Of a DNA stretch of 64,000 bases, positions 32,196 through 56,846 are shown in pieces (position 1 is the first letter of the stretch; every line of letters starts with the position of its first letter). The DNA is taken from the NCBI GenBank assembly GCA_016932335.1, contig JAFGCZ010000012.1, forward strand, positions 186,001 to 250,000. Reading direction: 5' to 3'. The position numbers and the translations under genes were made by a program. The DNA is from Opitutales bacterium (GTDB lineage: Bacteria > Verrucomicrobiota > Verrucomicrobiia > Opitutales > Oceanipulchritudinaceae). The notes beneath the pieces are model-generated. The model saw only the letters and a list, made by a program, of their open reading frames with translations. It was not told the origin of the DNA and did not search any database.

Positions 32196-32238
32196 AGAGG
32201 GCGAACTCATCAAAAAAGTTCGCCCTCTATGTTTTTTT
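32196..32238. terminator. Terminator between RND permease and convergent actin gene
   Basis: agagggcgaact-catcaaaaa-agttcgccctct followed by a T-rich tract. Confidence 0.75.
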
Positions 32239-32255: not shown

Positions 32256-33368
32256 TTAGTCTATCAGAGTTTGCCATTGCCGTTCTTTCGCGGCACGGGC
32301 AGCTTTCATGGCTCCCTTGGCAACAAATTCCTTATAATTTTCTCCGATAATGCGTACCTTGGGCTGCTCATAGCCGTCATCTTCCAGCATCTTTTGCAGC
32401 ACCTCGGCGAAATTCTTTATTTGGCTTCCTCCACCCGTTAAAACAATGTTTTGTAACAATTCCGGAACGCTATCCGGGTTCGCTTTTGCAATTTCCTGTT
32501 TAACACCTTCAAAGATAAGGTCAAGAAGAGTTAGCGTGGATTGTCCAATTTCGTAACCGATATCAAGTGTTCTGGGTTTGCCGCCAATGATTTTCTTAAC
32601 GATAATGTCACTCTTCTGAGGACCCATGTAGGCGTGTTCTTCTTTGATTTCGATGACACTGTGAATGGAAAGATCACTGTCTGGATACTTTTGCAGAATT
32701 TCTTTAGAAAGTTCAGCGTCTACAGCGTCTCCGGCGTAGGGAATGGAAATTTGGTCGTCGGGCTGAGGGTAGTAGCCCTGTACTAAACACAAATCACTGG
32801 AACCGGCCCCTATATCGATGAACAGTGAGTTGTTAACCGGATCAATATAGCCGTCTTCCTTTAATCGGCTTTCATCGCGGTAGCCTAATGCTGCCAGAAA
32901 CGGTTCCGGAATTAAAATTACTTTGTCAAAAACGCCTTTTACCGCTGTGCGCACATTTTCACGTGCTATTTGGTCGGCTCTGGCCGGAACACCAATTACA
33001 GCCCGGTATTCCCTGCCCTCGGGCAGATGTTCTTTGATGTGGCCTGCATAATCGGAAGCGCTTTTCAAGTCATCAATAACTCCATTTCGCATGGGGCGTT
33101 GAAGTTGGCAGTAAATGCGGTATTTCAGCGCTTCTTTACCGAACAGCACGGTTTTATCCGAGGGCAGAATCCCCTCCAGTAATCCCTCTTTGGCATATCC
33201 GACGATACTGGGGATAATTTCGTTTGTCAGCAGGTCGTTGCTTCCCGTTGTGGAAGCCATGATGCAGGAACTATTCGTTCCCCAGTCGAACCCGACGAGG
33301 ATTGTTTCAGCGGCAGTATTTGAACTCATAGTAGGAATGGGGGTCGTTTCGGTTGCGTTTTCTTCCAT
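32256..33368 (-). CDS. MamK-like bacterial actin (MreB/ParM/MamK superfamily ATPase)
   Basis: Actin fold motifs: phosphate-1 VGFDWGTNSS, phosphate-2 SLFIDIGAGSSDLCLVQG, adenosine LQNIVLTGGGSQI. MamK-like signatures: SIVGYAKE, VLFGKEALKYRIYCQLQRPMRNGVI, YRAVIGVPARAD, ILIPEPFLAALGY, QPDDQISIPYAGDAVDAEL. Confidence 0.8.
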   Translation of the reverse strand: MEENATETTPIPTMSSNTAAETILVGFDWGTNSSCIMASTTGSNDLLTNEIIPSIVGYAKEGLLEGILPSDKTVLFGKEALKYRIYCQLQRPMRNGVIDDLKSASDYAGHIKEHLPEGREYRAVIGVPARADQIARENVRTAVKGVFDKVILIPEPFLAALGYRDESRLKEDGYIDPVNNSLFIDIGAGSSDLCLVQGYYPQPDDQISIPYAGDAVDAELSKEILQKYPDSDLSIHSVIEIKEEHAYMGPQKSDIIVKKIIGGKPRTLDIGYEIGQSTLTLLDLIFEGVKQEIAKANPDSVPELLQNIVLTGGGSQIKNFAEVLQKMLEDDGYEQPKVRIIGENYKEFVAKGAMKAARAAKERQWQTLID

Positions 33369-33398: not shown

Positions 33399-34028
33399 TT
33401 ATTCGAAAAGAGATCTCAAAGGGCTTATCTGCTGTGCCATGCTTTTGTATTCGGAGCCTTGGAGAGCGTCTATCATTCCTGAAACATCTCCCACGGGTAC
33501 TTTTCGCTTTCCGGTCGATAGGGTGGCGCCTCCCGGGGTAATTGCCCGGTTCTTTTCCATTGCTTTTTGCAACAGCTTGTTCTCTTCCGGGGGCTTCTCC
33601 GCCTGTTCCAGCAGGTCGGCGGTATTTTTCGGCAACTTTTTCCCTGAGTTGCCTGTCGGTGCGAATCCGCGTTGCTTTAGCTCGTTCATGATGCTTGGCA
33701 AAACGCGCTCGGAAAGTCTGTTGACAATCATCCGCTGAATGATTCCGGCATCGGCAATACGCCGGCTTTCCTCTATGAACATATTCTGCAGGCGCAGGCG
33801 CTTTTCGTCGCTGTTCTCTGGCGAGGCTTTGGACCATCTGCGGATCAATTCCGGGAGGATGTCTATGGCTAGCTTTTTGGCTTCAGACTCGTGGCCCTCA
33901 TGGTAGGAGAGGCAGGCTTCGCGGAATAATTCAACAAGTTCATTCCAGTAATCCTCGGAAATACCGGATGTCTGGGCTGTTTTCGAGATGATTTCGACAG
34001 GATCTCGATGTTGTGTTTGGGCGGCCAT
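33399..34028 (-). CDS. Uncharacterised ~210-aa alpha-helical protein, probably cotranscribed with MamK-like actin
   Basis: ORF on the same strand, 30 bp upstream of the actin start; start placed at ATG 34028 (MAAQTQHRDPVEII...). No recognised domain. Confidence 0.65.
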   Translation of the reverse strand: MAAQTQHRDPVEIISKTAQTSGISEDYWNELVELFREACLSYHEGHESEAKKLAIDILPELIRRWSKASPENSDEKRLRLQNMFIEESRRIADAGIIQRMIVNRLSERVLPSIMNELKQRGFAPTGNSGKKLPKNTADLLEQAEKPPEENKLLQKAMEKNRAITPGGATLSTGKRKVPVGDVSGMIDALQGSEYKSMAQQISPLRSLFE

Positions 34029-34225: not shown

Positions 34226-34253
34226 AAAAAAACCTCTGCCTGTAAGGCAGAGG
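34226..34253 (-). terminator. Terminator downstream of small basic protein gene
   Basis: Minus strand: cctctgccttacaggcagagg followed by ttttttt. Confidence 0.75.
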
Positions 34254-34279
34254 CTTGGAAAGTGTCTGGAGACTCCAGA

Positions 34280-51305: not shown

Positions 51306-56846
<5,541 letters not shown>

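Follow-up and report, generated by a model that had tools for sequence, protein, structure and literature searches.

BeeR, a bacterial actin of Verrucomicrobiota, and a previously unnamed protein family encoded upstream of it

The bacterial actin BeeR is accompanied by a previously unnamed protein family, which is tied to it by position, selection, co-occurrence and co-loss. The pair is described here from a 64,000-nucleotide stretch of Opitutales DNA (the window), and from a survey of BeeR loci in other genomes. BeeR was published in March 2025 in PNAS (PMC11929497) as an actin of non-magnetotactic Verrucomicrobiota that is closest to MamK and that polymerises with ATP into a three-stranded tube; its filament structure is solved, its function is unknown according to its discoverers, and the main text of their paper reports no partner gene. 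A protein that is both inherited and lost together with BeeR provides a handle on its role, and BeeR is better studied as an operon than as a single gene.

Family assignment of the actin

The actin gene of the window is a real ORF with an ATG start on the minus strand; the plus-strand frame over the same positions has stops throughout. An earlier note on this DNA had placed the gene exactly, strand apart, and had read it as a MamK-type actin in a non-magnetosome context. All nine peptides quoted there are found in the protein (at positions 25, 56, 74, 91, 123, 155, 182, 201 and 307), the three actin nucleotide-binding motifs included. The residues of the ATP-binding and hydrolysis core, as well as the EP motif, are invariant (alignment A1), and the catalytic and phosphate-loop motifs are intact.

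A comparison with the NCBIfam profiles agrees with the note in that the protein is nearer to MamK (219 bits, with 400 required) than to MreB (62 bits, with 293 required), but both scores lie below their cut-offs and BeeR is by far the best curated profile, with 511.8 bits. This is 18 bits under the BeeR cut-off of 530, a strict equivalog threshold below which several partnered BeeRs of three other genomes (G328, G334 and G337) also fall. The nearest solved chain in a PDB search is 8r2n, the BeeR of Opitutus terrae (B1ZZL4; E 7e-126), which has 53% identity to the window protein over the actin fold and shares with it the same motifs, an N-terminal extension and an apparently non-magnetotactic origin in Verrucomicrobiota. 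A disordered extension of 30-50 aa is a trait of BeeR; that of the window copy is shorter, at about 22 aa, and has low pLDDT in a model in which the actin is fused to its partner. Foldseek likewise aligned the protein with 8r2n (TM 0.94). In a tree of 37 BeeR, 19 MreB and one MamK sequences it falls inside BeeR, with MreB as a separate clade (SH-aLRT 100). These results indicate that the window actin is a divergent member of the published BeeR family, and not a new MamK-type actin.

It could also be the case that the gene is a true MamK, which left a magnetosome island or took on a new role. MamK has the actin fold and is the closest other family, second both among profiles and among structures, and it groups with BeeR and not with MreB in the tree. 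The BeeR profile score is far higher, however, identity to the solved MamK filaments 5jyg and 5ljv is 25-26%, and the BeeR sequences form one group without MamK, with a support (SH-aLRT 74) that is modest because the lone MamK branch is long. We consider this origin very improbable. On the profile scores and the tree, MamK, MreB, FtsA and DnaK were rejected as the family of the protein; its placement outside MreB and DnaK is upheld. The earlier hypothesis was thus correct in outline, the actin being chromosomal, related to MamK, outside any magnetosome island and from a PVC bacterium, but profile score, best structure, tree and synteny all give its family as BeeR, which was already published. 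Planctobacterial 'MamK actin-ancestors' are also named in an earlier paper (PMC7203096).

Unlike MamK, which is a magnetosome-island gene, the window actin has no such island around it, as far as can be seen in the window and in its parent assembly (2.1 Mb, 80% complete); the note's statement that mam and par genes are lacking nearby holds true within the window. A search for magnetochrome domains was empty, as were its controls, so that the empty result does not prove absence. The window gene is the only MreB/MamK/BeeR-type actin of the assembly, two further actin-superfamily matches being probably FtsA and DnaK, as judged by their size. Most relatives have an MreB-type actin; its absence from this assembly is unproven, since the assembly is 80% complete.

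The window copy differs from O. terrae BeeR in most of the polar cross-strand residues named in the BeeR paper (PMC11929497), whereas the hydrophobic pocket is kept. With respect to 8r2n the changes are E149Q, R157T, R242Q, N246D, T307Q and Q310A, while E153, I277 and L284 are retained and L385 is replaced by the similar Ile. The residues Arg252 and Asn380 of the paper do not match the 8r2n residues so numbered in our alignment; if Asn379 of 8r2n is taken as the equivalent of Asn380, the window copy has N379R. The published cross-strand positions vary considerably across 86 BeeRs. Such changes bear on the form of the filament and not on family descent. From these residues, we would not assume a three-stranded tube for the window copy, and the published tube may not be common to the whole family.

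The operon and the partner protein

The description of the actin's neighbours in the earlier note, as an RND pump and housekeeping genes, overlooked the important one, a gene directly upstream that ends 30 nt before the BeeR ATG and is in the same frame (Table 1). Intrinsic terminators bound these genes on both sides, so that the two make up a single short operon. No tRNA or Rfam elements were found at the operon.

Table 1. Features of the BeeR operon and its borders in the window
Feature	Positions	Strand	Remarks
Intrinsic terminator	32196..32228	minus	13-bp stem; directly after BeeR
BeeR-family bacterial actin	32256..33368	minus	370 aa; short disordered N-terminal extension of ~22 aa; assigned by profile, PDB search, Foldseek and tree
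Partner gene	33399..34028	minus	209 aa from ATG 34028; open frame could begin at TTG 34082; same operon
Partner, C-terminal short helix	33450..33506	minus	RKVPVGDVSGMIDALQGSE; family consensus (D)IxxMIDxxL; D187 nearly invariant (alignment A3)
Partner, variable low-complexity linker	33507..33671	minus	differs freely among homologues in both length and sequence; pLDDT mostly 35-70
Partner, N-terminal helical module	33672..33977	minus	WxxxxxxFRxAC...RxxGxxxEA...LP...W...MFxxExxR (alignment A3)
Intrinsic terminator of the small-basic-protein gene	34230..34256	minus	5' border of the BeeR operon
Small basic protein TIGR04137	34280-34438	minus	52 aa; Chlamydiae/Verrucomicrobia gene; directly upstream of the BeeR operon

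The partner protein has no family in Pfam, NCBIfam or PHROGs and no relative in the PDB by profile search, and no description of it was found in the protein-family libraries and literature searched. Its N-terminal module is predicted by AlphaFold as three helices with pLDDT 92-98, and residues R36, C39, F84 and E87 are nearly invariant in alignment A3. A fold search of the PDB with this module gave no match with E below 0.3. The top fold matches of the partner, Vipp1/ESCRT-III hairpins, had E above 0.3 and were not counted as evidence, and a Pfam TSKS match (E 0.001) was below the cut-off and present in one of 40 members, for which it was taken as a coiled-coil coincidence.

The pattern of the C-terminal helix is found in 33 of 45 non-redundant tails, as compared with 1.0 in shuffled sequences (maximum 4). 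Most of the 12 tails in which it is missing, among them that of the window, retain the motif core but have one position substituted. A subclade of partners that includes those of the window and of loci L060, L063, L075 and L096 carries an extra C-terminal tail, approximately ILPLRxxL, after the common motif (33399-33450, minus strand, in the window).

Conservation, co-occurrence and co-loss of the pair

Our survey covered 80 BeeR loci in GTDB species genomes, 78 of them with upstream DNA, using a partner profile trained on clear cases. The partner was found upstream of BeeR in 68 of these 78 loci, and in more than 12 loci outside the training set it was recovered at the right place. It evolves fast: median pairwise identity at the same loci is 24% for the partner vs 53% for BeeR, and the divergence of the two proteins is correlated (r 0.78). 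Among finite pairs of close homologues, dN/dS of the partner is 0.08-0.42, which indicates purifying selection. As to other genes around the operon, an HDOD-type signalling gene is convergent to BeeR in two Opitutia loci (L005 and L007), and in L096 BeeR is followed by a response regulator gene and a kinase-like one.

Across 390 genomes of the phylum, each of the two genes was detected in 18, and in 17 both were present and adjacent (Fisher p 1.5e-27, uncorrected for kinship). The BeeR genome scored as lacking the partner (G002) has a divergent one with the same motif at the expected place (L003). The genome with a lone partner (G355) has no BeeR, and its partner is a pseudogene with four stops. 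A comparison of this locus (L116, G355:C2:124000-132000) with L096 rendered colinear flanks, between which BeeR and the next genes have been deleted: pseudopilin genes lie on one side, and the opposite side has a uracil-DNA-glycosylase-like gene; the two other listed genomes of the same genus (g58) keep both BeeR and partner. G355 is hence a natural BeeR knockout, in which the partner is no longer maintained. Such a loss in place is a stronger argument than the co-occurrence p value, which is uncorrected for phylogeny. Given that the partner almost always accompanies BeeR and decayed in the one genome that lost BeeR, it is probably the missing partner of BeeR.

Operon inheritance alone can preserve adjacency, and the partner might then be a mere conserved neighbour, translationally coupled or co-regulated, without a common function with BeeR. 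The eight BeeR loci, of about three lineages, in which no partner could be detected would be in line with this; in those loci the partner is either replaceable or unrecognisable. On the other hand, the partner decayed upon deletion of BeeR, and it persists unlinked in two genomes (G027 and G031) in which BeeR stands alone and the partner is kept elsewhere. Moreover, two genomes with two BeeR loci (G438 and G429) have extra partner matches or a second, partnered BeeR locus, and the genes beyond the pair are less conserved, most of the largest other clusters being frames that lie antisense to the pair or overlap it. We give this explanation little credence.

Possible roles of the pair

Actin-fold filaments are known to work with partners in which a flexible linker connects a folded part to a short C-terminal peptide, as in ParM/ParR, AlfA/AlfB and the interaction of FtsA with the tail of FtsZ. 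The BeeR partner has the same layout, without any similarity in sequence or fold to those proteins having been found. This layout matches that of proteins that hold a filament at one end and another target at the other, and the partner is therefore proposed as an adaptor or regulator of BeeR. The operon would thus be a two-gene chromosomal cytoskeletal system made of the BeeR filament and a dedicated adaptor or regulator, a reading that we hold to be reasonably probable. It builds on steps that are established: the actin belongs to the BeeR family, the two genes share an operon, and the pair is conserved, under selection, found together and lost together.

ATP binding and assembly into filaments, as shown for the BeeR of O. 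terrae, are very probable for that of the window as well. The partner would be a small, fast-evolving protein whose folded helical N-terminal domain is joined to a short C-terminal helix by a floppy linker, and one of its two conserved ends would grip BeeR, presumably by direct contact. The C-terminal (D)IxxMIDxxL helix is the favoured candidate, and the other end may oligomerise or hold whatever the filament positions. An AlphaFold model of an in-frame read-through fusion of the two proteins gave no support for docking, with a pLDDT of the C-terminal helix of 72 when fused vs 83 alone. The tail of FtsZ has the sequence DIPxFLR, which DIPxMID of the partner resembles; this is a lead only.

The same logic of an actin and an adaptor in one operon is that of a ParMR-like DNA-segregation cassette, in which the partner would bind DNA and link it to BeeR, and ParMR-type adaptors also grip their filament by means of a C-terminal helix. 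Nevertheless, the pair is chromosomal in single-contig genomes, and the N-terminal domain of the partner has neither a DNA-binding family match nor a fold match. Matches on plasmids are weak, at about 25% identity, and where annotated they are MreB or rod-shape proteins, so that a plasmid origin was rejected. A segregation cassette is accordingly held to be improbable.

It can also be the case that the partner is an assembly inhibitor, a chaperone or a nucleator of BeeR polymerisation, linking BeeR to nothing else. A small, fast-evolving protein encoded just before the actin would suit such a function, which fits the co-loss equally well; yet its two modules, each conserved in its own right on either side of a long variable linker, point to a protein that bridges two targets. 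We regard this explanation as rather unlikely.

Within the adaptor or regulator proposal, a more specific form is an obligate BeeR-partner system, in which the C-terminal helix would bind the filament and the helical domain would attach it to a cargo or cell structure, while the form of the filament may vary from member to member. This is put forward tentatively, as a possibility that falls somewhat short of an even chance. If true, the obligate pair would be a chromosomal filament-positioning system of Verrucomicrobiota without known counterpart.

Elsewhere in the window, an ORF of 1846 aa (51306-56846, minus strand) looks like a tandem fusion of two UvrA proteins.
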